A DNA stretch of 42,417 nucleotides, taken from positions 1-42,417 of IMG/VR virus record IMGVR_UViG_3300047649_000085, one strand, 5' to 3'. How positions within the stretch are numbered: position 1 is the first letter of the stretch; every line of letters starts with the position of its first letter. The notes under the pieces are model-generated. The model searched no databases. It saw only the letters and a list, made by a program, of their open reading frames with translations, and had not been told where the DNA came from. Source of the DNA: a virus. Below, piece after piece: positions 16,296-39,560 of the stretch. The position numbers and the translations under genes were made by a program.

Positions 16296-16344
16296 TGTTG
16301 GTGCTCCATTCCCACGGATTACAGCTCCGTGCCGCTGGTTTTTA

Positions 16345-16767
16345 CTACACTTGTGTAAGCGCCGATGAATCGAATGTGACCGCAAGGCCCACCAAGTATC
16401 TGTTGGCAATTCCCTTTTGGTCACCCTTGGCGCTGAAGGGCATAGCCATTGACCTTTCAAGTTTGAATAGCTTGACGCTGGTGCCCTCCGGCAACGATCC
16501 GGTAAAGGGCTTGAGCACCGCTTCAATGGCTTTACCTAACGCCCGCGCCGCGCTCCCGCTTGTGGCGTATATGTCGAATTGGACTTGTCCCTCTTCAAGA
16601 CCAATCGGCCCGGCCATGTCCGTATCTTCGGAGCCGCCATATTGATGCACGCACACTGCGGGCAGCGAATAACCACGGGGCAACTCATCTTCATGTATGC
16701 CGCCCGTTGCTAGCGTGCGGATGCTGCTTGTGTTGGTCAGAAGCGAGATGATGCCGTCAATGAGCAT
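16345..16767 (-). CDS. Tail terminator protein (DUF3168-like)
   Basis: 140 residues from ATG 16767, overlapping the previous stop as TAATG, with AAAGGGA ten bases upstream. The pattern LPRGYSLPAVCVHQYGG... VQFDIYATSGSAARALGKAI... RYLVGLAVTF is that of DUF3168/tail terminator proteins that cap the tube where it meets the head. The neighbours agree: head closure protein before and tube protein after. Confidence 0.75.
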   Translation of the reverse strand: MLIDGIISLLTNTSSIRTLATGGIHEDELPRGYSLPAVCVHQYGGSEDTDMAGPIGLEEGQVQFDIYATSGSAARALGKAIEAVLKPFTGSLPEGTSVKLFKLERSMAMPFSAKGDQKGIANRYLVGLAVTFDSSALTQV

Positions 16768-20094: not shown

Positions 20095-21720
20095 TCAGTT
20101 AGTGTCCTTTGCACAGAGAGACACAAGAGCCGCTAAAGCCGCCTCTGTCCCCGTGGTTGTGAATCGGTCAAGGGTGCTCCGGCGCATCTCCAGATAATCC
20201 CGGACGGAAGTCTGACCCGCTCCGGTACACCGTTCGATGTACGCGCCAAAGTTGGTGTAAAACACATCCGCGTTTTGCTTGTCCCCAATCAGGGCCTTGC
20301 GCTCACGCTCCAGGATGTGAGAGCCAACACGGGCGGCCAACTTGTTGAGCTGTGCGGATTGGTCCGTTGTGGTTGGGTCCGGCAGTTGGGGCGTTGGCTT
20401 TGGTGGTGTCCCTCCAACCTGTCCGGCCCCGCCCGCCGCGTTGTTGAAAAACTCAAGGCCATCTTTGTAAGGCATCCCCTCAGCCCGCCGCGCCTCAGCC
20501 GGTTGCGCCCATCCCGCCAGAATCTTGGCGTTCCAATTCGCAATACGGGCCGTCTCGTTAGCCTTGAGCAAGTCAGAGAAGTCCGTCTTGAGAAAGAGCC
20601 GCTTCTTTTCCTTCGTGCTGAAAAGGTCACGCTGTCCGGTCTGCTCAATCCGCTTTGCCCATGGGCCAAGAGTGTGCTTGGTATAGGACTCAAAGAATTG
20701 CTCAGCACTCGCATAGGTGGAGGTCTTGCCCTTGGTTGCTCCGCCAAGCAACACTTCGGGATACCGGAAGACGCGGGCAAGGTCACTGACCTGATACTCA
20801 CGGGCCTCAAGGTACTGAGACTCAACAGCCGTCAAGCCAATCTTGTTTATCTTCATGCCGCCTTCAAGAATGGCGGGCATGTAAGCATTGGATGAGCCGC
20901 TGTGCCGCTCCATGAATGAGCGCCGGAGCTGCTTTATTTGGTCATCACTCAACGTCTCCGGCACCTCAATGGAAAGGTCCGTCTGTACGCCTTGCTTGAA
21001 GAGCCGCGCACCTTGCTGCTCAGCCGCAAGCAGCAAGCCAATTGCATCCCGAGCAAGCAGAGTGATTGCTTGACCGTCAATGCAGTTGTCAGACAGGATG
21101 GAGCCGCGCCAAACCATGTCTTGTGTAAAGCTGCCACTCACGCCCGTGGTGGGGTCAGTGAAAACCCAATCCATCTCTCTCCATCGGCGGGTCACATAAC
21201 CAGCCTGGAGTGGCCACAAGGACTCAATCTGACCAAGGCTGTCATAGTCCTGCGAGAAGTTAATGAGGTTGTACCAGTTGCCCCACATCATTGCGTCCAT
21301 CATGAGGTGCTCACGCACTTCCATGGGTGTCATCAAGTCATTGGGTGCGACATTGAGAATCTGGTACACCGGATGGTCAACCATGATCTTGTCTTCTTTG
21401 TCACCGTACTTGAAGACATCCATGGTGAGGGCTGCCGTGTCCTCTGACAGCCCGCGCATGATTGCCAACACGGTGGCACATCGTTTGGCACGCGCCGGGG
21501 ACACAATCTGTCCCGTCTCCGTGCGGATGCCTATAAGCATGTCTTCCCACGCTGAGACATCGGACATTGACGGGAGATTTGTCACGCCCGTGGGCGCACC
21601 GGACTCATAGTCAGCCTTCATACTTCGGGCCTCTGACAAGTCCAGGACCGTGAGTCCTCCCTTGGAGACAGGCTCAAAGTATTCCGGGTGCGCCAAGTGC
21701 AATTGAATTAGTCCGCTCAT
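20095..21720 (-). CDS. Portal protein, HK97 family
   Basis: 541 residues from ATG 21720 (MSGLIQLHLAHPEYFEPVSK), with GAGGA six bases upstream. Conserved portal features include MVDHPVYQILNVAPNDLMTP, DAMMWGNWYNLINF, SILSDNCIDGQAITLLARDA, FMERHSGSSNAYMPAILEGG, and ARVFRYPEVLLGG with a following EQFFESYTKHTLGPW. The dodecameric portal is the DNA channel of the head and the docking site for terminase and the connector. The C-terminal region after residue 430 is Pro/Gln/Thr-rich and then helical. Confidence 0.93.
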   Translation of the reverse strand: MSGLIQLHLAHPEYFEPVSKGGLTVLDLSEARSMKADYESGAPTGVTNLPSMSDVSAWEDMLIGIRTETGQIVSPARAKRCATVLAIMRGLSEDTAALTMDVFKYGDKEDKIMVDHPVYQILNVAPNDLMTPMEVREHLMMDAMMWGNWYNLINFSQDYDSLGQIESLWPLQAGYVTRRWREMDWVFTDPTTGVSGSFTQDMVWRGSILSDNCIDGQAITLLARDAIGLLLAAEQQGARLFKQGVQTDLSIEVPETLSDDQIKQLRRSFMERHSGSSNAYMPAILEGGMKINKIGLTAVESQYLEAREYQVSDLARVFRYPEVLLGGATKGKTSTYASAEQFFESYTKHTLGPWAKRIEQTGQRDLFSTKEKKRLFLKTDFSDLLKANETARIANWNAKILAGWAQPAEARRAEGMPYKDGLEFFNNAAGGAGQVGGTPPKPTPQLPDPTTTDQSAQLNKLAARVGSHILERERKALIGDKQNADVFYTNFGAYIERCTGAGQTSVRDYLEMRRSTLDRFTTTGTEAALAALVSLCAKDTN

Positions 21721-22102: not shown

Positions 22103-24007
22103 CTAAAGGTTGACCATTCTTGGTTTGGCCTTGATGAGTTTGGCGTTGTCCGGGTGAGTTGCACGGCCATAGGCCATGATCGAAGCAACCGCGCCGTCTA
22201 TCTTTTCAAGGCTTTTTAGTTTGTCCGGCATCTTCAAGCCGGTGTGGTTGGTTATCCAACGGAGGTTGTTTATCTGCCAAGCAAGCATGGGGTCAGCGGC
22301 ATGTGCTATCTCCCTCCGTCCCACTGCCAAAACAAAGTCATTACACGGGGCCGCATAGTTCATCATGGTCTGAGCAAACTTGACCACCTTTTCCTTTTTC
22401 AAGCCCGGTTGGAAAATCATGTCCCCGCGTCTTGACCAACCAAGCGGGATGCCTTTCTCTGCCTCCCCCTGGAGTATCGGGCGCTCACGTCCAGCAAGCA
22501 CACGGTTGATGAGTCCACCCGCCAAGGCTGGGTCATAAGCCAACTCACGAAGGTCAAAGTATGCGTTGAGGTTGAGAATCTCCCCAACGATGAAGTCATA
22601 GTCCGTGACGTGGCCGGGCGTGGTAATCAAGAAGCCTTGGTCACGCCAAAGGTCATACGGGACTTGGTGCATGTTGACGCGGGCCTCAATGTTGTCCGCT
22701 GGAATCCAGAACCAAGAAAGCAGCTCCCACTTTTCCTCTTCAGCCATTGGAGGAAACACTAGGACAAGAGCGTTGGTGTCATCCGTAGAGGCAAGGTCAA
22801 GCGCACTCAGACAGACACGTCCTTTTAGCCTCTTCATTGCCTCTGCTCTTAGCTCAACAGCTTCCCCTTGGCGAGCACACGCCCTCCAATCCTCCGGCTG
22901 AATAGCTTTGCTGAGTGAACCAACGCGAATGTTGAGGCTGTACCGTAAGAAATCATGCTTTGCTAGGGCGCTGTTTTTCGCCTCAAGGCATTCTTGTTGC
23001 ATGTCTGCCATCTTGACGGTGATGCCAAGATTGGGACACGCTTTCCGCCACTTCGTCTCATCATCCCAACGGTCACCCTCTTGGATGATGTTGCCCAAGG
23101 CGTCTTTTATCTCTTGGTCAATCTCCAGAATCCATGCAAAGAATCGGTCATCCGGGATAACGCCCGTGAGCACGCCTTCAGCGTAGTTGTCCAGCTCGTT
23201 ACAGATGGAAGTTGTGTCATCAGCGCTTGGTGCGGTTGTGATGAGCTGACCAAGTGGTTGAGTCCTTGACCGCATACCATAACGGAGGACTCCGTAAGGT
23301 CCGCGTCCGGGCCAAACATGGACTTCATCCCCAATCCAAAAGCTGATGTTTTTGCCTTCCATGCTTTCTTTGTCACGGGAAAGCGGCTTGGCTATCGCGT
23401 TTAGCTCCGGCACGCGGAGCATACGGCATGGTTGGTCCCCAACCTTCTTGATGACACCGCGTAAACCGGGCGTGCCGTCAATCATGGCCACGGCTTCATC
23501 AAATACGCGCCGGGCTTGGTCTTCCACGAGGGCCACGGTGTACACTTCGGCACCGCGCTCACGGTCATATTTCGTGTGGTACACAACCTGGACAGAGCCG
23601 CGTGCGGACTTGCCTGTCTTACGGGGCCAACGATCATACGCAATGCGAAAACGGCGCGGGTTGAGCGTTATGGGTTTCTTCTTGTTGGGCAATGTGATTT
23701 GAACGGCTTGCCGGTCACGCCACCCATAGAGGATTACGTCATGGGCAACTTGCCAATCCGCCATGGTCATGGGCGCGGGCCACTTGCTTGGCTGTACCGT
23801 TTCAAAGAGGCGGCAGAAACGGACAGCATCTTGAGCCGGGTCAAAGATGAAGGGGAAAGACGGGTCCTTCTTGCTCCGCTCCAGGTCAGCAACATGCCGC
23901 TCCACAGCAAGCCGGTTGAGACGGCATACCATCTCTTCACCGGACATGACACGGGAGATGTATTGCTCCGCTATGGCAACGTAGTCCCTCAACGAACGTC
24001 CCCACAT
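22103..24007 (-). CDS. terL: Terminase large subunit (Terminase_1 / HK97 gp2-like)
   Basis: 634 residues. The ATPase has the deviant Walker A RWPRKTGKS (126-134) and Walker B FWIGDEV with catalytic Glu228. The nuclease has Asp404 in ALDLAST and a C-terminal acidic residue in KIDGAVASIMAYGRA (about 604). The protein cuts and translocates DNA into proheads through the portal. Its first ATG lies inside the last codons of the zinc-ribbon gene (19-base overlap in another frame). GTGGGGA follows the ATG rather than preceding it, so initiation may depend on coupling. Members of this family usually work with P27-like small subunits, as found at 25170-25553. Confidence 0.94.
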   Translation of the reverse strand: MWGRSLRDYVAIAEQYISRVMSGEEMVCRLNRLAVERHVADLERSKKDPSFPFIFDPAQDAVRFCRLFETVQPSKWPAPMTMADWQVAHDVILYGWRDRQAVQITLPNKKKPITLNPRRFRIAYDRWPRKTGKSARGSVQVVYHTKYDRERGAEVYTVALVEDQARRVFDEAVAMIDGTPGLRGVIKKVGDQPCRMLRVPELNAIAKPLSRDKESMEGKNISFWIGDEVHVWPGRGPYGVLRYGMRSRTQPLGQLITTAPSADDTTSICNELDNYAEGVLTGVIPDDRFFAWILEIDQEIKDALGNIIQEGDRWDDETKWRKACPNLGITVKMADMQQECLEAKNSALAKHDFLRYSLNIRVGSLSKAIQPEDWRACARQGEAVELRAEAMKRLKGRVCLSALDLASTDDTNALVLVFPPMAEEEKWELLSWFWIPADNIEARVNMHQVPYDLWRDQGFLITTPGHVTDYDFIVGEILNLNAYFDLRELAYDPALAGGLINRVLAGRERPILQGEAEKGIPLGWSRRGDMIFQPGLKKEKVVKFAQTMMNYAAPCNDFVLAVGRREIAHAADPMLAWQINNLRWITNHTGLKMPDKLKSLEKIDGAVASIMAYGRATHPDNAKLIKAKPRMVNL

Positions 24008-24252
24008 TCATTGCAGACATAGAAGCCGCCCAAGCGGTTAAAGGACAGACCGCCGCACTTGATACATGTGCTTTTGGAGGTGGGCAGCCCGGAGCCGTCA
24101 ACCGCGTTTGCAGGAGACTCCGGGCCTTGGTTGGAGGGTACTTCTACGGCGGAGGGTGCGTCCACGGAGCGCGGACGCGGCTGGAAAACTTTGTCCCAAT
24201 TGTCCCGGTATTCGCGGGTGCTTGGTCGCTGCTTGTAATCATACTCAGCCAT
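23989..24252 (-). CDS. Small zinc-ribbon protein overlapping terminase
   Basis: 87 residues: a disordered Pro/Ser-rich N-terminal half, then CIKCGG...YVCNECG, a four-cysteine zinc ribbon at the C terminus. Its last codons overlap the terminase start by 19 bases, indicating translational coupling. It may recruit terminase to DNA or to the portal, or be an independent regulator. The family is not recognised. Confidence 0.72.
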   Translation of the reverse strand: MAEYDYKQRPSTREYRDNWDKVFQPRPRSVDAPSAVEVPSNQGPESPANAVDGSGLPTSKSTCIKCGGLSFNRLGGFYVCNECGDVR

Positions 24253-24376
24253 GCTATGTACTCTCCCCGGATGAGGAAACGCGCCAATGAGTCCCGTTAG
24301 TGCGTCCCGTTTCCTTGTCTATTTTGAGAGTACCGAGTAAAACAACCGAGTACGAAGTATGCCGGGAGGTTTTTTT
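24253..24376. promoter_or_regulatory. Intergenic control region upstream of the terminase-head block, with two pairs of 13-bp-period repeats
   Basis: GTCCCGTT occurs at 24291-24298 and 24304-24311, and ACCGAGTA at 24332-24339 and 24345-24352; each pair has a start-to-start distance of exactly 13 bp. A run of nine T follows on the plus strand near 24371-24379. No matching hairpin or good promoter hexamers were found by eye. Position between lysozyme and terminase makes it a candidate late-activator or terminase-binding site. Confidence 0.5.
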
Positions 24377-24817
24377 TTATGCCGCCGCCAAAAATTCTTT
24401 GGCCTCAGCTTTGCGCCGTCGCAATAAGCCCGGAAGCTCCACGCCTCCGCACTTGTCCCACTTCTCAAACTCAGCGGCGGCCTTCACGTGGTCATTGTGG
24501 TTGAGTAGAGCAAGCAAGCTGGAGTGTTGGAAGTTTCCCGCGCCGGTATTGAAAACGAAGTCCACCAAAGCATCAAACTCCGCTTGAGTCAATGGCACCT
24601 TGACAACCCGGCTGACTTCAGACGCGGCCCAAGCAATGTCACTGGCAAGCCACTCTTCAGCCTGTGCCTGTGTGCAAGTAAGCCCGGCCACAACCAAGCG
24701 GCCTGTGTGCCCAAAGCCGATAGTCCACACACCCTTGCTATCTTGGTAAGCCTTCAGGCGGCATCCCTCAAAGCCTTCCGTTAGCTGGAGGCCCTTCTTG
24801 CTGTAGGTCATGCTCAT
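24377..24817 (-). CDS. Endolysin, GH24 phage lysozyme
   Basis: 146 residues. The T4-lysozyme-type active site is present: Glu17 in FEGCRLKAYQD, Asp26 in the same run and Thr32 in WTIGFGHTG. The C-terminal domain (LTQAEFDALVDFVFNTGAGN) is also typical. It hydrolyses peptidoglycan glycan chains at lysis. There is no signal peptide, so export depends on a holin. The start overlaps the ParB-like stop as ATGA. The gene sits between the small and large terminase genes rather than beside the holin candidates, an unusual interleaving. Confidence 0.93.
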   Translation of the reverse strand: MSMTYSKKGLQLTEGFEGCRLKAYQDSKGVWTIGFGHTGRLVVAGLTCTQAQAEEWLASDIAWAASEVSRVVKVPLTQAEFDALVDFVFNTGAGNFQHSSLLALLNHNDHVKAAAEFEKWDKCGGVELPGLLRRRKAEAKEFLAAA

Positions 24818-25161
24818 AAAGCCTCACGTGTCCTTTCGGCCTCTTGCTTGGTGAGCACATAGGCACGGACAGCGGCTCCGCGCCGGAGCTGCTTTGCCGC
24901 CCTGTGGTTACCGTCGATAACCTTGAAGCCACTGCCGAAGGGGACCACGATGCAGGGACGGCGGGCGTCCACGTGCGGCACATGGTCCGTTGTCCCTGCC
25001 ACTGAGTTGCGGATGTAAGAGAGCACAAGGTCCTTGGGCTGTAGCAGCACGAAGGGCCGGGGAGACACACGGAGGATAGCCAAGGCCATGCTCACGCTAT
25101 AGCCGTCCCACTCTTGCTCAAGCACCTTGAAGGCGCACCGCTCACAGCTCTGATGTCTCAT
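24814..25161 (-). CDS. ParB/Srx-fold domain protein
   Basis: 115 residues. An N-terminal CERC pair is followed by PRPFVLLQPKDLVLSYIRNS and the ParB-type motif VIDGNHRAAKQLRRGAAVRAYVL, the GNHR box that binds nucleotide in ParB/sulfiredoxin-fold proteins. There is no ParB DNA-binding helix-turn-helix. Phages often carry such short ParB-like proteins near terminase, with unknown role. It is coupled to the lysozyme (ATGA) and follows the small terminase gene by eight bases. Confidence 0.78.
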   Translation of the reverse strand: MRHQSCERCAFKVLEQEWDGYSVSMALAILRVSPRPFVLLQPKDLVLSYIRNSVAGTTDHVPHVDARRPCIVVPFGSGFKVIDGNHRAAKQLRRGAAVRAYVLTKQEAERTREAL

Positions 25162-25169
25162 GCACCCGC

Positions 25170-25553
25170 CTACCTATCAAGGATGTCTTCAATGGTTTCG
25201 CCCGGCTCAGTGTGTGAAGCCACGGCGGAACGAAGGCCAAGCAGTGAGAGCACCTTCACATAGTCACGGCGGAGTGAGTCCACGCGCCGGGCTGCCGGAT
25301 GAAGCTGCTTGCTGCCTGTCTTCGGGTTGTCAAAGTACGCACCCTCCGTTGCAACGGTGTCAGCCGCGTCCTCCAGGTCTTCGATGATGTTTGCCGCTTG
25401 CTCAATCAGCCGTCCGTGCGCCTTCGCAACGCGGATGTTGGATTCAAGCAGCTCTTTGACAAGCCGGTCCCATTCTCGGGACGCGACCTTTGACAGACCT
25501 GGAGGCTTCGCCGGGAGGCCAGGAGTCATGTTTTGATTCGGTAAACGGGCCAT
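25170..25553 (-). CDS. terS: Terminase small subunit, P27 family
   Basis: 127 residues with GAGGG ahead of ATG 25553. The sequence MARLPNQNMTPGLPAKPPGL, SREWDRLVKELLESNIRVAK, LDPAARRVDSLRRDYVKVLS-type ordering (here LHPAARRVDSLRRDYVKVLS) followed by LGLRSAV is the P27 small terminase pattern. It recognises the packaging site and presents it to the large subunit, which lies 1.2 kb further on with three genes between. Confidence 0.9.
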   Translation of the reverse strand: MARLPNQNMTPGLPAKPPGLSKVASREWDRLVKELLESNIRVAKAHGRLIEQAANIIEDLEDAADTVATEGAYFDNPKTGSKQLHPAARRVDSLRRDYVKVLSLLGLRSAVASHTEPGETIEDILDR

Positions 25554-25748
25554 AAGTCCCTCATTATCTGTGGTTTAGCGTGGTGCCAGTTGGCAGAAAG
25601 ATACGAAAAACAGTAGAAACGCAAGCATTTGTTCCATTTTTCGTAGAGTGTTTGTCGGTGTAAGTTTGGGGATTGCGGCGCTCTTTTCGGGTGCCCTCGG
25701 CATGATTTTGACCCACCCCATCATGCTGATTCTAAAGTGGTTACAATG
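25554..25748. promoter_or_regulatory. Non-coding segment between HNH and small terminase genes, with three inverted repeats (candidate cos/packaging or promoter site)
   Basis: This is a 195-base gap in an otherwise tightly packed operon. It contains TGCCA-GT-TGGCA at 25584-25595, ACGAAAAA (25603-25610) with TTTTTCGT (25637-25644), and GCATGAT (25700-25706) with ATCATGC (25720-25726). In HK97-like cos phages that encode HNH and P27/TerL proteins, the cohesive site lies next to these genes, making this the best cos candidate. A leftward promoter for the packaging genes is the alternative. A plus-strand frame starting at 25648 is judged a chance frame. Confidence 0.5.
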
Positions 25749-26204
25749 TCATCCGAATGACCACACGCGCTTTGCTTTGAGTGAGTCTGCTTGCACTACA
25801 GAGGGCCAAGCACCAACGTGTGTCTTGTCCTCTGTGGTTTTCTTGAAGTGGCACTCACGGCACAGCCCGTGCAAGTTGCTCCGCATAAAGAAGCCCGCGT
25901 AACGGTCCACATACAGACCGCTCTCTGATGCCTGGACAATCGCTATCCCGGCAGGGATGATGTGGTCCACAATCTCACTGATGTTGTTGCCACAGCGAGC
26001 GCAAAAAGGTTGGGACCGAATGACTAGGTTTCTCAGCCGCGTCCATCTTGATGAGCTGTACAGGAAGGCATACTTTTCACGGTCTGTCAGTGTGTGGATG
26101 CGTATGTCATCCGTTGTTGTGGTTGCTTGCGGCTTGCACTCATCACAGAAGCGGATGCCATCATCAACAACACGAAGGCAACCCGCACCACTGCATATAC
26201 GCAT
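25749..26204 (-). CDS. HNH endonuclease
   Basis: 151 residues. An N-terminal zinc knuckle-like CSGAGC...CDEC is followed by the HNH core: C68xxC71, the DH pair in EIVDHIIP (80-81), Asn110 in RSNLHGLC and C115xxCH119. Phage HNH proteins beside terminase genes nick at cos together with terminase in HK97-like phages. The start overlaps the preceding stop (TGATG). Confidence 0.9.
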   Translation of the reverse strand: MRICSGAGCLRVVDDGIRFCDECKPQATTTTDDIRIHTLTDREKYAFLYSSSRWTRLRNLVIRSQPFCARCGNNISEIVDHIIPAGIAIVQASESGLYVDRYAGFFMRSNLHGLCRECHFKKTTEDKTHVGAWPSVVQADSLKAKRVWSFG

Positions 26205-26434
26205 CAGCGTCCACCCATCAACAAACCGCGTATCTCAGCAAGTGCGCGGTGTATCTGTGGCATGTGGCGCTCAACAATAGCCGTGATGCTTGTCTCAGCC
26301 TTGGCAACACGTATCTCCAGCTTTTGCACGTAACGGCCAAGCCAAAAGGCAGCAAGCACAATCACAGGCCATTGCATTGCTACAGCCCACGATTGAAGCC
26401 AAGACAATGGAGATGCGTGTTGCTCATCAAACAT
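26204..26434 (-). CDS. Small membrane protein with coiled coil (holin-class candidate)
   Basis: 76 residues from ATG 26434 (MFDEQHASPLSWLQSWAVAM), with AAGGA upstream; in-frame upstream sequence is rejected. One transmembrane helix (MQWPVIVLAAFWLGRYV, about 20-36) is followed by an amphipathic helix (EIRVAKAETSITAIVERHMP). Placed after the other membrane gene and ahead of the HNH gene in the lysis region, it may be a holin, antiholin or spanin-like component. Confidence 0.72.
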   Translation of the reverse strand: MFDEQHASPLSWLQSWAVAMQWPVIVLAAFWLGRYVQKLEIRVAKAETSITAIVERHMPQIHRALAEIRGLLMGGR

Positions 26435-26436
26435 GG

Positions 26437-26661
26437 CTAATCCTTCTTTGCGTGCATGATTGCCGCGCCGGTCATGCCCATACCACTGACAATGCCGTAC
26501 AGGTCTTTGTCTCCGGTGCCATGTGCCACCAATGCCAATGCTCCGGCAAGGATGAGCACGCCATATCCCCAAGCGTTTTCAGGGATGCGTCCAATTGCGT
26601 CCAATCCGTCCTTGATGTGCGCCCAAGGACTGATAGGCACTGCCACAGTTTTTTCGTCCAC
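26437..26661 (-). CDS. Small two-segment membrane protein (holin candidate)
   Basis: 74 residues from GTG 26661, with AAAGGA five bases upstream. The hydrophobic segments are WGYGVLILAGALALVAHG (about 31-48) and a weaker LYGIVSGMGMTGAAIMHA (about 54-71), separated by a short charged loop, and the end is KKD. Size and topology fit a class II holin, which would release the GH24 lysozyme. It is the first gene after the strong terminator at 26682-26714, so it is expressed only by read-through or from a nearby promoter. Confidence 0.75.
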   Translation of the reverse strand: MDEKTVAVPISPWAHIKDGLDAIGRIPENAWGYGVLILAGALALVAHGTGDKDLYGIVSGMGMTGAAIMHAKKD

Positions 26662-26681
26662 GTTGTCCTTTCTGAAATAAA

Positions 26682-26714
26682 AAAGGGACAGAGCTGGTTA
26701 GCATCTGTCCCTTT
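26682..26714 (-). terminator. Rho-independent terminator between the early operon and the late block
   Basis: The minus-strand RNA forms an 11-bp perfect stem AAAGGGACAGA / TCTGTCCCTTT with an 11-base loop, continuing into TTTTTTATTTC. It is the clearest terminator in the window. It ends the leftward early operon 39 bases after the last early gene and stands about 20 bases before the first lysis gene. Confidence 0.93.
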
Positions 26715-26752
26715 GGCGGGCACTCCCCATGTGTGCGCTTTGTCTCTAGCGC

Positions 26753-27052
26753 CTACGCCCGCGTGTGAATCTGGAATCCGTCCGGTACTCGATTCATGAT
26801 GCGTGTCTTTTCAGACGTGGACCGCATGTCATCAAGCATGACCTCCAGAATGTCCCGTCTGATAGGCTCCGGGCATCTGTGAATCAATTGCAATCCGGCA
26901 GTGAAACAAGCGCCGCAAGTTGGGCAATGCTCGTGTCCCGTGTGTATGTTGTCAATGACCGGGACTGTCTTTTCATAAACGTCAAAAAGGTCAATGTCTT
27001 CAATGTTGTGTCTGCTCTTGAATCTCAGCGTTACATGAGACTGATGGGCCAT
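26753..27052 (-). CDS. Hypothetical early protein with CxxC motif
   Basis: 99 residues (MAHQSHVTLRFKSRHNIEDI). HCPTCGACF (about 42-50) and a later HRC could bind one zinc. The start overlaps the end of the preceding gene by 22 bases. It is the last gene before the terminator. I do not recognise the family. Confidence 0.7.
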   Translation of the reverse strand: MAHQSHVTLRFKSRHNIEDIDLFDVYEKTVPVIDNIHTGHEHCPTCGACFTAGLQLIHRCPEPIRRDILEVMLDDMRSTSEKTRIMNRVPDGFQIHTRA

Positions 27053-27276
27053 TCCCCGTTGTCCAATCTCTCCCCTTGTGGCGGCTCATAGGTGATGCGC
27101 CCGTCAAAGTCCAGGTCACCAACCATGTGGCCGTAAGTTAACCAATGCGGGTCATGTCCGCGCTCCATGGACAAGCCCGCCCGCTTGAGTCTTGCTTCCC
27201 AAAACGCTTGTGTCCCGCGCTTGGCATATTTGCCCTTACACTTATGTGATTTTGTGGCTGAAGTCTTTGACGGCAT
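27031..27276 (-). CDS. Hypothetical small early protein
   Basis: 81 residues from ATG 27276 (MPSKTSATKSHKCKGKYAKR), with GGGAG eight bases upstream. The N terminus is lysine-rich; the rest (WEARLKRAGLSMERGHDPHW, DLDFDGRITYEPP) is unrecognised. Longer upstream starts would run into the structured intergenic region and are rejected. Confidence 0.68.
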   Translation of the reverse strand: MPSKTSATKSHKCKGKYAKRGTQAFWEARLKRAGLSMERGHDPHWLTYGHMVGDLDFDGRITYEPPQGERLDNGEWPISLM

Positions 27277-27479
27277 TGCACTTACTCCCAAGGTTAAATC
27301 CCGTTGTGGCGTCCTGTGTGCGAGTCCCGGTTGTCCGCCGTGTGAGCGCCACAATCCATACCGTCTCGGCAGTAATGTAATGAAATGAAATTACTGACGG
27401 TGGTGTGGTGGTCTTAAAGTGTCTGCTGTCCGCCGTGTATTCGCTATACGGCGGCGGACAGTGAAGCACCATTTTCGGG
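27277..27479. other. Structured non-coding region after the prim-pol gene: candidate replication origin
   Basis: About 200 bases without a gene. There are three cruciform-forming inverted repeats. First, TTGTGGCG 27304-27311 with CGCCACAA 27347-27354. Second, CAGTAAT 27370-27376 with ATTACTG 27390-27396, enclosing AT-rich GTAATGAAATGAA, and flanked by CCGTC/GACGG. Third, CTGTCCGCCG 27426-27435 with CGGCGGACAG 27452-27461, with an inner GTAT/ATAC. The 12-mer TGTCCGCCGTGT is directly repeated at 27332-27343 and 27427-27438. Repeats, hairpins and an AT-rich core beside a primase-helicase gene are typical origin traits. A role as a partial terminator is possible for the third hairpin. Confidence 0.5.
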
Positions 27480-29330
27480 TCATTCTGTGTGCTTGCACCC
27501 ACTTCCGTTGAGAGCGGAGCGCGTGTCTGATACCCACGTCTTTTGGCGCTTTATGCCAATCTCGGCCAAGGCCGCCACGGTGTCCCGAATTGAAAGCTCC
27601 GGGTGCTCACGGATAAAGGTCTTGGCGGCATCGTCCAGGCCGTCTTTGTTCGCCTTGTATCCCCCCGTTTTAGTTGCCAACACAGCGCGGACGCCCGGCT
27701 CACCAACGCGGGTCATGATGGCCGTCTCAAGGTTGCAACTCACCTCAAAGTTAGGCAAGCCTTCATAATCTCGGGCTTTGATATGGCTGATAAACGACGT
27801 GGAGCCGTATGCTTTATCCGGTGCCGCCTCTTGAAGCCGTGTGCCGTGTGCGTCCGTAATGGCCGCGCCTAACTCACCACTCCCCCGGAGACAGTTTTCA
27901 AGAGTCAGCTCATCCACGCTCTTGGTAGCCTTTGGGCTGTGGTATAGCACCACAATGGCACCGTCTTGGCCTTGCCGCCGTTGCGTGTCAAAGAGGACTT
28001 GGCTAAACGCCCGCGTGTCGCTGACACTGTTTTCATCACCCGCCATGAAGCGGACAGCCGTGTCCACAATAAGCACACTCCCAAAGAGCGCCTCATCCGG
28101 GATGTCTGAGAGTTTGAGGTCACCAAGATTCATTGACCGCATGAAGAGCGTGTCACCAAGACAGCTTTGGATGCCCATGTTGCGGATACGTCCGCTCAAT
28201 GAAATCAAGCCCATCTCCGGGCACAGGTACAGCACCCGAGTGGGCCGGTTGACAACCTCCAAGCATCCAAACAACGCCTCACCCGTACACAGTGATCTTG
28301 CAACGTTCAAAGCTATAAGGCTCTTGCGCTGTGCCACGGGCGCGGCAATCGCACAGATAGCTTGTTTGGCTAGAAAGTTTTCAATCAGGAAGGTGGGAGG
28401 TGGGCAGTTGACCACTTCCTCTTGCGTGTGAAACATGGTGCGCCAATCAGCCGGGGCCACAAAAGCCGCCTCTTTCTTGCCGCTTCCAAGCATGACAACC
28501 GGGTCGGCTCCAGGCTCGGGCACGTAGTCACCGCGCCGGGATAACATCTCAGCCTTGAAAACCGCTGTGTCACGCTTCTTGGCTTTGCACGTCCCGTGGG
28601 AGCACTCAAAGGCAAGCTTCCCGTCCAGGATGCCAAGCACGGTGCTGCTCTCAGCTCCAGGCCCGGAGGTGTGCTCCGTGGTCCACGGGCACTCAATCCC
28701 CAACCACCACCCGTTTGGCGCTCGCTTTTCGTATCCGCGCAACCCAAGCTGATAATGGGCCGCGTATTCAAGAAGCCAAGTCTTCCACTCATCCGCCGTC
28801 TCATTATCCACAGCCGTTGCCGGGTCAAACGTCTCATGAGCGGGCGCTAAAGCCCGGACCCAATCCGGCACGGGAAGCAAAGGCGCATCAACCAAGACCG
28901 TGTACGGCTCACCGCTTGGGTGAACACACCCGGCAGCCATCACATAGCCCGTGGCGCTCCGTATGTCCCCTTTGAGGCCGTCTTTCTCCCATCCGGTTGA
29001 CTTCAAGCCGCTACCTTGAAAATACTGTTGGACGCCGAAGCCGTCTGTCCGGCCCGTCCGAACAGCATACGTCCGGCCTGTCTCCAGGTTTGCGAAGTCC
29101 GCCACGCCCGTTAAGCCGTGGTCATAGTCAACCACGGTCAAGCCACTTGGTCCCGTCGCAATCGCAACATTGGCGTCCGGGTAGTTTGTCCACCAAGCCT
29201 CAATGGTGTCACGGCTGTTGCTCGCATCTTTGAAGCCTTGCTTGGTCAAAGGCTTCTTGGTTTTCGGTATGCACGGGAAGACAAACCACCCGCGCTCAAT
29301 ACAACTCAAAGCAATCTCAAGCATTGACAT
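27480..29330 (-). CDS. Bifunctional primase-polymerase / helicase-like replication protein
   Basis: 616 residues from ATG 29330 (MSMLEIALSCIERGWFVFPC), with GGAGG four bases upstream. The N-terminal prim-pol domain (about 1-190) shows TVVDYDHGLTG with the metal-binding Asp68 and Asp70, and AAGCVHPSG with His137. A Cys/His element follows (CPWTTEH...FECSHGTC, about 214-248). The C-terminal RepA/AAA_25-type ATPase has Walker B SVLIVDT (418-423). The Walker A position reads AIAAPVAQRKSL (about 327-338), lacking the usual glycines but keeping K-S. It would unwind DNA and synthesise primers for phage replication. It overlaps the methyltransferase gene by 14 bases and is followed by the candidate origin. 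Confidence 0.88.
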   Translation of the reverse strand: MSMLEIALSCIERGWFVFPCIPKTKKPLTKQGFKDASNSRDTIEAWWTNYPDANVAIATGPSGLTVVDYDHGLTGVADFANLETGRTYAVRTGRTDGFGVQQYFQGSGLKSTGWEKDGLKGDIRSATGYVMAAGCVHPSGEPYTVLVDAPLLPVPDWVRALAPAHETFDPATAVDNETADEWKTWLLEYAAHYQLGLRGYEKRAPNGWWLGIECPWTTEHTSGPGAESSTVLGILDGKLAFECSHGTCKAKKRDTAVFKAEMLSRRGDYVPEPGADPVVMLGSGKKEAAFVAPADWRTMFHTQEEVVNCPPPTFLIENFLAKQAICAIAAPVAQRKSLIALNVARSLCTGEALFGCLEVVNRPTRVLYLCPEMGLISLSGRIRNMGIQSCLGDTLFMRSMNLGDLKLSDIPDEALFGSVLIVDTAVRFMAGDENSVSDTRAFSQVLFDTQRRQGQDGAIVVLYHSPKATKSVDELTLENCLRGSGELGAAITDAHGTRLQEAAPDKAYGSTSFISHIKARDYEGLPNFEVSCNLETAIMTRVGEPGVRAVLATKTGGYKANKDGLDDAAKTFIREHPELSIRDTVAALAEIGIKRQKTWVSDTRSALNGSGCKHTE

Positions 29331-29853
29331 GACGCCTCCAGGCAAGTAACGAGTCTTGAGGCACGCCAAACCATGAGTGCCGCTCCACTGTAAAGCCCAC
29401 AACCTCCAAGGCCCACGCGGGGACCACTGAGACATGGGTTGGGTCACAAGCGATTACATCCACGGCCTCACTGTTGGGTGTTGTCAGCACCACACCGCGC
29501 CGGGCGGCTTGGACCATTGTGTTGATAAGGGCACCATGGTGGTGTAAATGTTCCACCACCTCTATGCACACGATGAAGTCAGCGGGCGGAGCCGTCCACC
29601 TCTCCAGGTCAGTCCCATCAATCACCGCGTCCACGGGTGTGTACTCCCCGGACCATCCGCACTCATGAAGATAACGGCCAAACTGACACGTGCCCGCGCC
29701 CACGTCAATGATGCTGTCTCCAACACGAAGGCCCAAGCGCATGAGCCGGTCAAGCACAGCGTTGTAACGGGTCCGGCTCCGGTACTCATAAGACCCGCGC
29801 CGTGAGTCCCTGTATGCCGTCCACTTGTCCATCAAGAGCGTTGCTGTGCTCAT
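29317..29853 (-). CDS. Class I SAM-dependent methyltransferase
   Basis: 178 residues. SAM-binding motif I is IIDVGAGTCQFGRYL (about 48-62) and motif IV is IVCIEVVEHLHHH (about 92-104). The latter is typical of small-molecule or lipid/protein methyltransferases of the Methyltransf_11/23 group rather than of DNA methylases, which have DPPY/NPPY. The substrate is unknown. It is coupled to the microprotein upstream (ATGA). Possible roles include modification of a host factor or nucleotide. Confidence 0.83.
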   Translation of the reverse strand: MSTATLLMDKWTAYRDSRRGSYEYRSRTRYNAVLDRLMRLGLRVGDSIIDVGAGTCQFGRYLHECGWSGEYTPVDAVIDGTDLERWTAPPADFIVCIEVVEHLHHHGALINTMVQAARRGVVLTTPNSEAVDVIACDPTHVSVVPAWALEVVGFTVERHSWFGVPQDSLLAWRRHVNA

Positions 29854-29939
29854 GCTGTGGCCCGCTTTCTAGCTAGCCTTGCAAGTCTGCGAATACGCGC
29901 CGCAAGTGGAAGCCGCTTCCTTTTGTATGCTTTCCGCAT
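29850..29939 (-). CDS. 29-residue arginine/lysine-rich microprotein
   Basis: The minus strand encodes MRKAYKRKRLPLAARIRRLA plus nine residues, then TGA overlapping the methyltransferase ATG (ATGA). AAAGGCGG lies seven bases before the ATG. Thirteen of 29 residues are Arg or Lys. Such a peptide could bind RNA or DNA, like the arginine-rich motif of antiterminators, or merely couple translation. The function is unknown, but the ribosome-binding site and both junctions support real translation. Confidence 0.6.
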   Translation of the reverse strand: MRKAYKRKRLPLAARIRRLARLARKRATA

Positions 29940-29959
29940 TGTGTTGCCGCCTTTCTTGG

Positions 29960-30136
29960 TTATGCTGCTTTTCTCGCTTTGTAGTGCTTCCTTAGCTCTG
30001 CCCGGAGGTGCATTGCGTGTCCGGCATCAAAGTTGGTGACACCGGACCAAGTGCTCTCAACAATCAAGAGAGCCACTTCACGGGCGTCAATCGGCATCCC
30101 GTCCGTTGCCATGATGACTAGCTGACGCAAGCCCAT
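29960..30136 (-). CDS. 58-residue hypothetical early protein
   Basis: MGLRQLVIMATDGMPIDARE and following residues to KARKAA. The ATG lies two bases after the preceding stop, with AAGGCGG upstream. The middle (EVALLIVESTWSGVTNFDAG) is well-behaved protein sequence. There is no family recognition. Tight spacing to the genes on both sides supports it. Confidence 0.65.
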   Translation of the reverse strand: MGLRQLVIMATDGMPIDAREVALLIVESTWSGVTNFDAGHAMHLRAELRKHYKARKAA

Positions 30137-30138
30137 GG

Positions 30139-30405
30139 CTAGGCCGCCTTCCTCTTTGCTGAAGCCTTGCGCCGGTTGCTACGGACTTTGAGCGAGTGGT
30201 CACGCTTGCCCTTAACGCGGTTGCGCTTGCCGCCGCTAGCACCCACGAAGATGGTGCGGCAGATAGAGCCGGGATGTGACCGCAATAAAGGGATAGGCGG
30301 CCCGGCATAGCGTGTGGTGGGGACGGTTGCTTTTGTAGAGCTGATGAGGCCGATTGCAGCGGCGGCCAAAGATGCGATACGGCGGAGTGTTCCAAACATG
30401 GGCAT
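30139..30405 (-). CDS. Basic-tailed hypothetical early protein
   Basis: 88 residues. The N-terminal helix (MPMFGTLRRIASLAAAAIGL) is partly hydrophobic and could touch the membrane. The C-terminal third (GKRNRVKGKRDHSLKVRSNR and on) is strongly basic, suggesting nucleic acid or acidic partner binding. GGAAAG precedes the ATG. Overlapping longer frames in the region have noise composition. The assignment as a real gene rests on tight spacing with the next gene. Confidence 0.58.
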   Translation of the reverse strand: MPMFGTLRRIASLAAAAIGLISSTKATVPTTRYAGPPIPLLRSHPGSICRTIFVGASGGKRNRVKGKRDHSLKVRSNRRKASAKRKAA

Positions 30406-30435
30406 GACTTTCCAGGCGGGTTGCGCCTCACTTCG

Positions 30436-30789
30436 TTACTTGGTTGAGGTTGTCCGCATGAATCCGCCACGGTCTGAAGTGCCGCGCTCATGCTGTTGCC
30501 GCTGCTTGGCCCGCGTGGTGCGCGGTGAGTCATCGGCAGCCGGTGACCACGTGTTTATCCATTCGCGGTTGCACTCGGCACTGATGCAATGTCCGCCCGG
30601 CTCCGAGTGGTGAATGTGCCGCGCTTGGATGAGGTCAAGCAGCTCCGTATATGTTCCGGTGTCCTTCAGTTTGCGGAGAGCGCGTGCAAGCGTGTAGTCC
30701 ACGGCGCGGGTTGTGACGCCTAGTTCCGCCGCTATGTCCTCAATCGGCATCAAGTGTGTGATGGTGGGTGCAAGCGCGGCACTAGCCAA
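30436..30789 (-). CDS. Sigma-70 region 4-like helix-turn-helix regulator
   Basis: 117 residues from a TTG at 30789, chosen because GGGGAGG lies six bases upstream. The core MPIEDIAAELGVTTRAVDYT, LARALRKLKDTG is a sigma region 4 / LuxR-like helix-turn-helix (the LGVTxRAVxxTLxRAxxKL pattern). A short conserved C-terminal part contains HCISAECNREWINTW, then a disordered tail. As an early product it could redirect host RNA polymerase or activate late transcription. The gene overlaps the preceding one by eight bases. Alternative start: ATG at 30750. Confidence 0.72.
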   Translation of the reverse strand: MASAALAPTITHLMPIEDIAAELGVTTRAVDYTLARALRKLKDTGTYTELLDLIQARHIHHSEPGGHCISAECNREWINTWSPAADDSPRTTRAKQRQQHERGTSDRGGFMRTTSTK

Positions 30790-30985
30790 TGTGAGCCTCC
30801 CCAAGCATGTGATTGACCACGGCATTGGCGACTAAACGCGGCGCGGGTGGATACGCAATCCCCGTGGTGATGCCTGGAGATTGATGGAGGCAGTCAAGGC
30901 ACTCAGTAAAGAGCCGGTCAGTATTGACCCGCAAAACGGAGTGACGGTGTTTGCAAAAGAGCCGCTTCAATCGGTGTGAAACCAT
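30782..30985 (-). CDS. Small zinc-finger-like early protein
   Basis: 67 residues from ATG 30985 (MVSHRLKRLFCKHRHSVLRV); GAGGA is six bases upstream, whereas the ATG twelve bases earlier has its purine run too close. FCKHRH and ECLDC supply possible zinc ligands. It is the first gene of the leftward early operon, directly after the control region, a position often used by regulators or anti-host proteins. The family is unknown. Confidence 0.68.
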   Translation of the reverse strand: MVSHRLKRLFCKHRHSVLRVNTDRLFTECLDCLHQSPGITTGIAYPPAPRLVANAVVNHMLGEAHIG

Positions 30986-31034
30986 GTGGGTCCTCATTTC
31001 CTTTCACCAACAGAACACACAATAGCACGTCCCG

Positions 31035-31090
31035 TTTACAAATCCCAAATGTGATTTGTCACTTCACATTACAAAAAATCCTCATATAAT
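31035..31090. promoter_or_regulatory. Divergent early promoters and overlapping operators (genetic switch region)
   Basis: Rightward promoter: -35 TTCACA 31063-31068, 16-bp spacer, -10 TATAAT 31085-31090. Leftward promoter candidate: -35 GTGACA (31062-31057), 16-bp spacer, -10 TGTAAA (31040-31035). Between and across them lie two interlocked palindromes, ACAAATC-N8-GATTTGT at 31038-31059 and ATGTGA-N9-TCACAT at 31049-31069. They cover both -35 boxes and the leftward -10, as expected for repressor operators. GTCCCGTTT at 31029-31037 also occurs, as GTCCCGTT, near 24291 and 24304. The repressor itself was not identified. Confidence 0.72.
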
Positions 31091-31147
31091 CACGCGCGCG
31101 AAGCACTATTTTGAATCCCAATTACAGCGGACAAACGAATTTTACCT

Positions 31148-31178
31148 TGACTATAACGTCCGTAGATTCAATAAGATG
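31148..31178 (+). promoter_or_regulatory. Possible second rightward promoter
   Basis: TTGACT at 31148-31153 and TAAGAT at 31173-31178 are 19 bp apart, about 65 bases before the first gene of the rightward operon. The spacing is longer than ideal. The better promoter at 31063-31090 would give an untranslated leader of about 145 bases. Confidence 0.35.
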
Positions 31179-31242
31179 GCACGCTATTTCACTTGTGTGT
31201 AGGGCCGAATAAACGGCGCTCACAAAAGGGAGAGGTTGTCAA

Positions 31243-31704
31243 ATGGGTTTATCCGTACAGATTGATAGCGGCGGCAAGGACTTTGAAGCGGTCACAGAGA
31301 TGCTCCAACCGGCAGTATTGGCGGACATCGTGGACAAGGGGGTGGTCCCCAACAAATTCAAGCCCGGCACCACACAGCACAAGTGCTATTTCGTGTGGAT
31401 TGTTGCGGAGACGGACAGCGAAGACCGCAACAAGCGCGTCTTTCAGTCCTTCACCGTCAGCCTCAACGAGAAAGCAAGCCTCCGCAAATTCCTTGGGACT
31501 CTCGGTATCAAAGAGTTTCCCTCCGCGTTTGACCTGGACACGCTGATTGGCACCAAGCGCATGTTGGTCCTGTCTGAAGAGGACAGCAAGGACGGCGGCA
31601 AGCCCTTCCTCAAAATCACCGCAACCATGGCGCTCAAGAAGGGTCAGACCGCGCCGGACATCCCCGCTGACTTCGTGCGCAAGCAAGACCAAACGGAGGG
31701 ATGA
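31243..31704 (+). CDS. Conserved-looking early phage protein of unknown function (possible recombination/ssDNA accessory)
   Basis: 153 residues with GGGAGAGG upstream of the ATG. The sequence runs MGLSVQIDSGGKDFEAVTEM, ADIVDKGVV, FKPGTTQHKCYFVWIVAETD, SLNEKASLRKFLGTLGIKEF and LIGTKRMLVLSE. This beta-rich pattern recalls phage proteins encoded beside recombination genes that are often suggested to bind ssDNA, but I cannot assign a family securely. It is the first gene of the rightward operon and is coupled to endonuclease VII (ATGA). Confidence 0.78.
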   Translation: MGLSVQIDSGGKDFEAVTEMLQPAVLADIVDKGVVPNKFKPGTTQHKCYFVWIVAETDSEDRNKRVFQSFTVSLNEKASLRKFLGTLGIKEFPSAFDLDTLIGTKRMLVLSEEDSKDGGKPFLKITATMALKKGQTAPDIPADFVRKQDQTEG

Positions 31705-32078
31705 CAGCACGTCAGCGGAGTTTGTGGCTGCTTTATAGGTTGAGTGAGGAAGAGTATGACTCAATTCTCACGTATCAGGGCGGAGTCTGTGCGGGATGCG
31801 GGGAGCCTCCGCACGGAATCCGTCTAGCGGTGGACCACTGCCACAAAACCGGACGCATCAGAGGCTTGCTTTGTTGGCTCTGCAATAGAGCAATAGGCAT
31901 CCTTCGGGACAAAGCGCAAACGGCCTCACGGCTTGGCGCATATCTCACCACACCAACGGCACCCGCCGCACTCGGCAAAGAAACATACGGGTTAATCGGG
32001 AAAGCCAAGGCCAACAAGAAAGTCAAAGTCTATGGTCCGCCCGCTGAGGTGGTCATTGGACGGAAAAGGAAAACATGA
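31701..32078 (+). CDS. Recombination endonuclease VII
   Basis: 125 residues. The T4 endonuclease VII fold is clear: C-x2-C (CAGCGEPP), the His-Me core LAVDHCHKTGRIRGLLC, then C-x2-CN (CWLCNRAIGIL). These enzymes cleave branched DNA and Holliday junctions so that DNA can be packaged, and repair mismatches. It is coupled on both sides (ATGA at the start, ATGA at the end). Confidence 0.93.
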   Translation: MTARQRSLWLLYRLSEEEYDSILTYQGGVCAGCGEPPHGIRLAVDHCHKTGRIRGLLCWLCNRAIGILRDKAQTASRLGAYLTTPTAPAALGKETYGLIGKAKANKKVKVYGPPAEVVIGRKRKT

Positions 32079-32284
32079 CCGCTGTATATGTGTTTGCAAT
32101 CGCTGTTGCCATCTTCTATGCCGGGAAGCGTTACGGTGCCAGTGTTGAGAAGCGTGCCGTATCAATCGCGTTGGCTGCTTTCACTGAGGCCAAGACCTCT
32201 TTGATTGCCTTGGTGACCCGCGCACAGACTGACGCCAAGGCCGAAGTTGAGCGCCTTGAGACGCTCGCCAAAAAGTATCTGTAA
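32075..32284 (+). CDS. Small single-pass membrane protein
   Basis: 69 residues: an N-terminal transmembrane helix (YVFAIAVAIFYAGKRYG) and a helical tail (AFTEAKTSLIALVTRAQTDA). The ATG overlaps the previous stop (ATGA). It is the last gene before an internal terminator. Superinfection exclusion or an early membrane role is possible, but nothing in the sequence identifies one. Confidence 0.75.
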   Translation: MTAVYVFAIAVAIFYAGKRYGASVEKRAVSIALAAFTEAKTSLIALVTRAQTDAKAEVERLETLAKKYL

Positions 32285-32311
32285 CCGGCTCTGTTGCTGT
32301 TGATGTGCTTT

Positions 32312-32339
32312 GGGTGGCCTTCGGGCCGCCCTCTTTTTT
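32312..32339 (+). terminator. Rho-independent terminator inside the rightward operon
   Basis: GGGTGGCC and GGCCGCCC pair over 8 bp (one G-T wobble) around a TTCG tetraloop closed by C-G, followed by TCTTTTTT. It stands 27 bases after the membrane protein gene and 22 bases before the nuclease start. The genes beyond have no obvious promoter of their own, so read-through or antitermination is implied. Confidence 0.9.
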
Positions 32340-32360
32340 GCCTCAAAAACTGGAGGTGTT

Positions 32361-33176
32361 GTGCGGATTTCATATAGCAAGTACACAGCTTTTCTCAAAA
32401 ACCCGGAACGATTCCGGCTGTACTACATGCTTGGACTCACTCCGGAAGGTGATGAGACACCAACGCTCATGAACTATGGGCGGAGGCGGGGCAGTTGCTT
32501 CCATGCGATGAACGAAGGCATAGACCGTGGCCTGTTGCTCGCCAAGTACGGCAAGGAAGTGGTGAGCCGGTGTGAGGACATGCTTGAGGTTGTCCCGGAC
32601 CTTGGTGAGCTGGATTGGGTTGAGCGTGAGTTTGAGATTCCTATTGGGGATGGCAAGCACTCAATCAATGGCCGCATTGACCATCGTTTTGTCAACCGTG
32701 ATGGTGTCCGGCAGCCGGGTGACTTCAAGACCACGAAGGGCACGCGCACCAAGGCTGAGGTCCGCACATACTTTGGGGACCTGGAGACATCCACGCAAAG
32801 CCACTTTTACTTGAGGGCAGAGCGAGAGTGGACGGAGACTCCAACCGGCCTCTTTACATATCACGTGATTTTTGACCGCAAGGACAAAGACCACAAGCCC
32901 ACGTATGCGCCGGTTGAGTTGTATGTTGGACCGGCTGAAGTTGACCGGACCATGGCTGAGGTGTACGCGGCCTGTGAAGCAATTGAGTTTTTACAGCACA
33001 CATACGGTGTAGAGAAGCCTTGGCCTCACAGTAACAATTGGCCGTGTTCCGGTGACCGTTCCTTCTGTGGCTACCAAGAGATTTGCGGACGAATGATGCC
33101 AAAGGGCTGTGTGCCTCCCGGCTTTACGTCCAGGTACAAAGAGCAAATTCAAGCAGACACGGGAGACGGACAGTGA
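32361..33176 (+). CDS. PD-(D/E)XK nuclease, Cas4/RecB-like, with C-terminal cysteine cluster
   Basis: 271 residues from GTG 32361 (RISYSKYTAFLKNPERFRLY follows), with GGAGG upstream; the frame before it covers the terminator and is rejected. Active-site elements are GRIDHRF and PGDFKTTKG (D-x-K). The C-terminal CSGDRSFCGYQEICG resembles the iron-sulfur cysteines of Cas4/AddB nucleases. It probably processes DNA ends in phage recombination. It overlaps the phosphoesterase start (GTGA). Confidence 0.87.
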   Translation: MRISYSKYTAFLKNPERFRLYYMLGLTPEGDETPTLMNYGRRRGSCFHAMNEGIDRGLLLAKYGKEVVSRCEDMLEVVPDLGELDWVEREFEIPIGDGKHSINGRIDHRFVNRDGVRQPGDFKTTKGTRTKAEVRTYFGDLETSTQSHFYLRAEREWTETPTGLFTYHVIFDRKDKDHKPTYAPVELYVGPAEVDRTMAEVYAACEAIEFLQHTYGVEKPWPHSNNWPCSGDRSFCGYQEICGRMMPKGCVPPGFTSRYKEQIQADTGDGQ

Positions 33177-33937
33177 ACGCAATCAAGCGGGCAATCAGTT
33201 TGTTTGACATTCATCACCCGCACGCTGATGACTCAACTCTCAACGCGGCTTTGGACTTCATGAGCCGTGAGCGTGTGGACATCGGCATCCTTGGCGGGGA
33301 CAACCTGGACTGTGGGTCCATCTCACACCACACGAAAGGTAAGCCGCTCTTTCGTCCGCGTGGACAAATGAAACGGGACTTGGACACCTTTGACAAGAAG
33401 GTCCTCACACCGTTTGAGAAACGTCTTGGCAAAGATGCGGTCAAGGTATGGCTCACCGGCAATCACGAAGATTGGGCGCTCCAGCTCATTGAAGAGCAGC
33501 CGGAGTTAGAAGGTCTTCTTGACTTTCCGGCATACCTCAACCTTGAGCAACGCGGATGGATTGTGAAGCCACAGGGCGGCCATTACCAATACGGCCATCT
33601 CAAGTACCTTCACGGGGACGTGCTGACAGGCGGACCCAACGCGGCAAGGAAGGCACTGGACATATACGTTGAGTCCGTTGTCTTCGGGCACTTCCACACT
33701 AGCGCCTCAGCAACCAAAATGTTGCCGCACTCTGCCAAGTACAAGTGGCAAGCGTGGTCAATGCCGTGCGTTGGAAAGCTGGACGCAAGCTATCTCAAGA
33801 AGCGCCCAACCGGATGGCTTAACGGCTTTGGCATCACTGAATTTTACGGCAAGGGATTCTTCAATCACTTCCCCGTGACCGTATTCAATGGCCGCTTTGC
33901 CTACGGCGGCAAGCTATACGGAAGGACACAAGGATGA
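33173..33937 (+). CDS. Calcineurin-like metallophosphoesterase (possible DNA exonuclease)
   Basis: 254 residues from GTG 33173, overlapping the previous stop. All metal-binding motifs are present: Asp12/His14 in FDIHHPH, Asp43 in GGDNLD, Asn97/His98 in GNHED, then LHGD and GHFH. Mre11/SbcD nucleases and various phosphatases share the fold. Coupling to a RecB-like nuclease suggests a DNA-end-processing pair, but the substrate is not decided by sequence. Confidence 0.88.
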   Translation: MNAIKRAISLFDIHHPHADDSTLNAALDFMSRERVDIGILGGDNLDCGSISHHTKGKPLFRPRGQMKRDLDTFDKKVLTPFEKRLGKDAVKVWLTGNHEDWALQLIEEQPELEGLLDFPAYLNLEQRGWIVKPQGGHYQYGHLKYLHGDVLTGGPNAARKALDIYVESVVFGHFHTSASATKMLPHSAKYKWQAWSMPCVGKLDASYLKKRPTGWLNGFGITEFYGKGFFNHFPVTVFNGRFAYGGKLYGRTQG

Positions 33938-39558: not shown

Positions 39559-39560
39559 AA

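Follow-up and report, generated by a model that had tools for sequence, protein, structure and literature searches.

The window, by which we mean the whole 42,417-nucleotide stretch of viral DNA analysed here, carries a long block of genes on its minus strand. From a divergent region near 31,000 this block runs through the PrimPol-helicase gene, a 107-aa gene and a 99-aa gene with a CxxCxxC motif (the CxxC gene) to two small membrane-protein candidates, and continues with an HNH gene, the small terminase, the endolysin, the large terminase, portal, protease, capsid and tail genes (Table 1). The sequence-only reading had called the downstream part a lysis/late block, and the endolysin (PF00959) and both terminases bear this out. 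The first membrane-protein candidate is called a holin candidate solely for its size, its position and one hydrophobic stretch; it matched no family and no close relatives of it were found. A tail-tube-like protein, 15678-16526(-), carries a C-terminal PASTA domain fusion (PF03793, E 1.4e-9). Just after PrimPol, at 27426-27461(-), lies a hairpin, CTGTCCGCCG...CGGCGGACAG, with a similar loop in a related phage (G004, L198 11586-11619(+)) and some matching stem changes between the two, and it is possibly a second conserved RNA.

Table 1. The structured RNA, its parts and the neighbouring genes and signals in the window.
Feature	Position	Strand	Remarks
Second intrinsic terminator	32312..32337	+	immediately ahead of the exonuclease-like gene's ribosome site; d = 18.6
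PrimPol-helicase	27480..29447	-	upstream of the element; PF09250 E 1.6e-31, PF13481 E 1.3e-14
Upstream (CxxC) gene, 99 aa	26753..27052	-	CPTCGAC (CxxCxxC); homologues in all four relatives
Whole structured RNA, P1 5' strand to end of U-rich tail	26675..26762	-	R2 match, covariation, MFE folds
P1 5' strand, GCGGGC	26757..26762	-	in last codons of the upstream gene; pairs with 26716-26721
P2 hairpin, GCGCU-AGAGACAA-AGCGC	26735..26752	-	loop AGARAC conserved; cells 100% paired
3'-side bulge between P2 and P1, conserved (Y)GGGG	26722..26729	-	GGGG in 4/4 sequences
P1 3' strand, GCCCGC	26716..26721	-	partner of 26757-26762; covariation
P3 hairpin	26682..26714	-	perfect 11-bp outer stem; conserved apex GCU-AACC-RGC
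U-tract, UUUUUUAUUU	26675..26684	-	begins with three U that close the P3 stem on its 3' side
Holin candidate, 74 aa	26437..26661	-	GTG start; first gene after the element
Second small protein, 76 aa	26204..26434	-	one hydrophobic stretch; 64-69% identical in all four relatives
Small terminase	25170..25553		in the minus-strand block
Endolysin, phage lysozyme	24377..24817	-	PF00959 E 6.6e-46; PHROG_7 E 1.3e-57
Large terminase	22103..24007	-	PHROG_9 E 3.4e-117

The minus strand from the CxxC gene to the holin candidate reads AAAGGGACAGA-T-GCT-AACC-AGC-TCTGTCCCTTT, then TTTATTTCAG, AAAGGAC and the GTG at 26661. The perfect 11-bp stem with a T-tract that the sequence-only reading had placed ahead of the holin candidate is there exactly as described, and the G+C-rich hairpin (P3) is followed directly by its U-tract, as an intrinsic terminator should be; the start codon follows 17 bases after the end of the first six-T run and 13 bases after the last T. 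P3 is the sole perfect hairpin of at least 10 bp in the window (both strands, loops 3-15). In 20 dinucleotide shuffles, hairpins of at least 11 bp occurred 0.3 times per shuffled window, and none had at least six T in eight. The folding z of the P3 region is -2.94 with the tail and -3.74 with all 91 intergenic bases. A scan of the window ranks the site as its strongest intrinsic terminator, with d = 32.1 on a d'Aubenton-Carafa type of score, against 18.6 at 32312 and 10.7 at 39592. The predicted terminator is one-directional, the plus strand having only TTT after the stem.

The gap between terminator and holin candidate is too short to leave room for a separate promoter and contains no sigma-70-like site, in keeping with the earlier claim that no promoter lies there. 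The minus strand of 24000-42417 yielded no sigma-70-like site, with the reservation that host promoters may differ from that pattern; all eight matches lie on the plus strand, and shuffled sequence gave a mean of 6.7. Likewise, the PrimPol-g107 gap has no such site in the direction of the genes in the window and in three related phages (G002, G003 and G004), and one 9-of-12 site in a fourth, G001. Expression of genes beyond either terminator from the same transcript would need read-through, as had been proposed.

Four related phages, G001 (L082), G002 (L088), G003 (L089) and G004 (L179), were found in IMG/VR by way of the large terminase, the PrimPol pair and RNA patterns; the G001 terminase is 80% identical to that of the window, and G002 and G003 come from one metagenome. 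The CxxC protein is encoded in all five phages. A homologue of the holin candidate occupies the same place in G001, G002 and G003, and an unrelated small ORF stands there in G004. Across the window and its four relatives the same gene modules occur in three orders and orientations. In the window, G002 and G003 they follow one another in one direction as PrimPol, CxxC gene, lysis genes, small terminase, large terminase and structural genes. In G004 the large terminase, portal, capsid and other genes come first, followed by PrimPol, the CxxC gene and the lysis genes. In G001 the large terminase and structural genes lie on the opposite arm, separated from the small terminase gene, and the lysis genes and small terminase are followed by the replication genes.

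We find that P3 is not the stand-alone terminator it had been taken for; it is the 3' arm of a conserved three-helix RNA of about 78 to about 90 nt, of which the part from P1 to the end of the G-C pairs of the P3 stem measures 73-80 nt. P1 encloses P2 and a 3'-side GGGG bulge, and P3 begins 1-4 bases further on. This two-arm fold is recovered independently as the minimum free energy structure in the window, G002, G003 and G004. The stop codon of the upstream gene lies at -10, -15, +7 and +8 bases from the P1 start in the four phages, and in the window (+7) falls between P1 and P2; given that the stop codon is beside P1, a ribosome that ends translation of the CxxC gene would occupy that helix or the bases beside it. 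The YGG of the bulge and the CCR of the P3 loop are complementary in all four sequences, with one covarying case, which hints weakly at a possible contact between bulge and loop.

A covariance model, R2, was built from G002 and G003 alone. It finds the window element at 26669-26765(-) with 65.1 bits (E 1e-14) and the G004 copy with 53.0 bits (E 1.4e-11), the next-best match in the 190 kb of all five phages scoring 12.8 bits; in G001 there is no match above noise. The element is therefore present in four of the five phages, once per genome, and in each case flanked by the CxxC gene and the first lysis gene despite the three genome arrangements. On alignment A9, which was fitted to R2 and hence leans toward the R2 structure, though unforced folds agree with it, 97 of 98 pair cells hold standard pairs. 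All three helices covary across the four phages, and 10 of the 25 pairs are changed on both sides in at least one sequence (3 of 6 in P1, one in P2, 6 of 14 in P3). Shuffled controls gave a mean of 3.7 such pairs and none of 500 reached 10, a comparison that ignores relatedness in a set of four sequences of which two share a metagenome. When the partners were slid, 33-47% of cells paired and 0-1 pairs were changed on both sides. The 98 cells comprise 90 Watson-Crick, seven G.U and no A.C pairs, with one other, which identifies the structured strand as the RNA sense strand of the genes. Invariant columns make up all four positions of the P3 apical loop and five of eight in the P2 loop, as well as 25 of 50 in the stems. 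An earlier model, R1, made from MAFFT alignment A6, had the wrong P1 register for the window and G004 and was replaced by R2; A6, A7 and R1 were left out of the pair counts.

R2 was searched over 115 of about 200 loci (11 + 16 + 88); most of a set of 80 loci share only an ATPase domain and served solely as sequence for that search. An RNA pattern search returned the right genes and fold in three of 12 loci (L170, L179, L180), the other nine (L171-L178, L181) being dropped as chance, and a further pattern search kept three of four, L199 having no model match. Among the hairpin-only pattern loci L168 and L169, R2 gave only an 18-bit match in L169 (E 0.021), which skips most of the P2 region and the P3 apex and was set aside. 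A stretch of GGGACA repeats at L011 7205-7289 scores 30.9 bits (E 4.4e-5) with most of P2 and the loops unmatched; it was treated as unrelated, though kinship is possible, since the only relative of a window gene nearby is a distant ATPase domain. The surrounding L011 7010-7290, in an unrelated phage contig, is a dense intergenic array of GGGACA/TGTCCC repeats and hairpins. Rfam, scanned with window 26400-27600 and L089 8800-9700 at E up to 10, gave no match in the element and a single chance snoRNA match outside it. BLAST of the element found no relative among 50,697 phage and 72,556 plasmid records, BLAST with the window stretch found no neighbours, and a limited literature search found no description of the element.

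The tail of the RNA varies far more than its fold. All four tails are U-rich, with 7-9 T in the 11 bases from the last stem G-C pairs; the hairpins of G002, G003 and G004 have an imperfect U-tract and fall below the terminator cut-off. On the same score d is -26.5 or -3.3 in G002 and -26.2 or -37.3 in G003, the paired values reflecting alternative choices of the stem end, and -6.4 in G004. The terminator property is thus not kept in the orthologous elements (d -3 to -37). Given that a strong U-tract exists only in the window, what is conserved is the RNA and not plain termination; termination may not be the conserved function of the element, and the predicted strong termination is a property of the window phage. 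Nor does the element mark a general border between early and late genes, as had been supposed: because large terminase, capsid and other structural genes stand upstream of it in G004, it marks the lysis cassette.

The terminator at 32312 has a 69-aa gene on one side and, on the other, the exonuclease-like gene, whose likely start is the GTG at 32361; terminators in the same place occur in G001 at 20826-20845 (d 39.1), in G002 at 30785-30802(-) (d 24.8) and in G003 at 13142-13159(-) (d 24.8), so that it is kept in all three relatives that hold the region; the G004 contig is without it. Further terminators stand directly before ribosome sites within codirectional blocks at G001 19608-19625(+) and G002 41162-41182(+). 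Predicted stop signals fused to module starts are thus a habit of this phage group, and their recurrence lends the idea of controlled read-through more weight than a single hairpin could. As for the phage-encoded antitermination that the two window terminators had been held to indicate, PHROGs found no known antitermination family among the window proteins searched. Two of the early genes that had been put forward as candidates were compared with the relatives. The ORF 30436-30825(-) has no match there, and its own match to the sigma-70 region 4 helix-turn-helix is weak, its E of 4e-6 lying just above the cut-off of Pfam; the 88-aa basic ORF 30139-30405(-) is homologous to the first 80 residues of an 816-aa ORF in G001 (L082 8669-8902(-)) and may be a truncated relic in the window. 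Overall, the sequence-only interpretation is partly supported.

A question then arises, what would such an RNA do at the head of the lysis cassette? The reading we favour, in which our belief and our doubt are about equal, is a cis-acting structured RNA that acts as a gate for transcription entering the lysis block and at whose 3' arm, in the window phage, transcription would terminate. As the comparison shows, the minus-strand transcript leaving the CxxC gene folds into the P1/P2 arm, then P3, followed by the U-rich tail and the ribosome site of the holin candidate. P3 with UUUUUUAUUU is a predicted strong terminator here, and most transcripts from upstream would end at the element. The conserved loops would be read by RNA polymerase itself, by a host Nus-type factor or by a phage protein, and this reading would set the frequency with which polymerase enters the lysis, packaging and structural genes, for which no separate promoter appears to exist at this border. 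Such an element would be a regulated read-through gate, leakier or otherwise tuned in the relatives whose U-tracts are weaker. Within such a gate, antitermination by an RNA element instead of a protein is possible. The CxxC protein is encoded immediately upstream in all five phages, but given that G001 has it, and the same genes, without the RNA, this protein is weakened as the partner of the element. No competing antiterminator fold prevails against P3 in any of the four phages, also with the first 20 bases masked to mimic a ribosome. An exclusive antiterminator formed by the P1 3' strand and the P3 5' strand is transient in truncated RNA, the complete P3 winning in all four. Since masking of the 5' end does not displace P3, a classical attenuator with mutually exclusive pairing is not supported.

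The conservation of the RNA beside a variable U-tract would also be expected if the element acted after transcription, as an intercistronic element controlling translation or stability of the lysis mRNA (for example by binding a protein or by leaving a stable 5' end once cleaved), the U-tract of the window being incidental. The start of the element no more than 15 bases from the upstream stop codon in all four phages would suit translational coupling, and pairing of the U-rich tail with the purine-rich ribosome site or start region is possible in G002 and G004. However, in the window and G003 pairing of the tail with the ribosome site is at best weak, P3 stops short of that site and leaves it uncovered, and the strongest terminator of the genome, if incidental, would cost lysis expression; we consider such a role rather unlikely, with some real chance of being correct. 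The textbook features of the window copy suggest a simpler account: it is an ordinary intrinsic terminator closing the operon upstream, its upstream arm has no function, and the lysis genes are expressed from elsewhere or through basal leakage. Yet this leaves the compensatory changes in P1 and P2 and the invariant loops unexplained, the relatives retain the fold without a good U-tract, and no minus-strand promoter-like site lies between the terminator and the holin start. A plain terminator as the complete account was rejected because P1 and P2 covary and the loops are conserved, and we hold the ordinary-terminator account to be improbable. Most improbable of all is a DNA-level cruciform site for packaging or replication, suggested by the nearby small terminase and PrimPol genes, between which the element lies in the window, G002 and G003: the seven G.U pairs and the lack of A.C pairs indicate an RNA made from one strand, the element lies between two genes of the same direction, and G001 has the same genes without it.

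Known phage systems offer partial parallels for the favoured transcriptional gate. In lambda the pR'-tR'-S layout puts a terminator shortly ahead of the holin gene, where the lysis and packaging genes begin. The window shares the terminator shortly ahead of a holin candidate and of lysis and packaging genes; it differs in that no minus-strand promoter-like site was found upstream by a sigma-70-like pattern, from which host promoters may deviate, and in that the terminator is one arm of a conserved RNA. The late gate of lambda is reported to be opened by protein Q (PMC6606751), whereas no Q-like protein was found by PHROGs among the window proteins searched. A conserved aptamer-like domain directly before a terminator hairpin also recalls riboswitches and protein-dependent attenuators; unlike these, the element has no competing antiterminator fold that survives P3, and no Rfam match.

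The put RNA of HK022 is about 70 nt long and consists of two stem-loops with a bulge in stem I (PMC9378689). Like putL and putR, the element comprises about 70-80 nt with two neighbouring stem-loops and a short spacer, has a bulge in its first stem (that the bulge of put is on the 3' side is deduced from its numbering), and lies in cis within a phage operon (for put, PMC9378689). Unlike put, which is not described there as followed by a terminator of its own, it runs into one; and whereas put lies downstream of early promoters, the element follows the PrimPol/CxxC genes and precedes the lysis genes, some 4 kb inside the minus-strand block. R2 found no match in the HK022 genome (NC_002166, searched as two pieces, L200 and L201). 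Given this and the different position, the element perhaps works like put and is not to be called a put. By analogy with put, which binds RNA polymerase and so suppresses pausing and termination farther downstream, its two arms, joined by the YGG-CCR contact, could bind elongating polymerase without any phage protein and carry it into the lysis and late genes, past the U-tract of the element itself and further terminators, a scheme that we regard as tentative and unlikely. If true, it would represent a class that belongs to uncultured phages and is not related to HK022 put by sequence.

Lysis timing decides the yield of a phage, and protein-free RNA elements that act on RNA polymerase are, to our knowledge, rarely documented. 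The comparison among these phages points to a new structured RNA at the lysis cassette and suggests an RNA gate on the timing of host opening. With three conserved helices, invariant loops and a constant place at the lysis cassette of rearranged genomes, the RNA is a small, concrete and testable object. If it controls read-through, it would be either a second, unrelated RNA-encoded control of transcription elongation in phages or a new kind of lysis attenuator.
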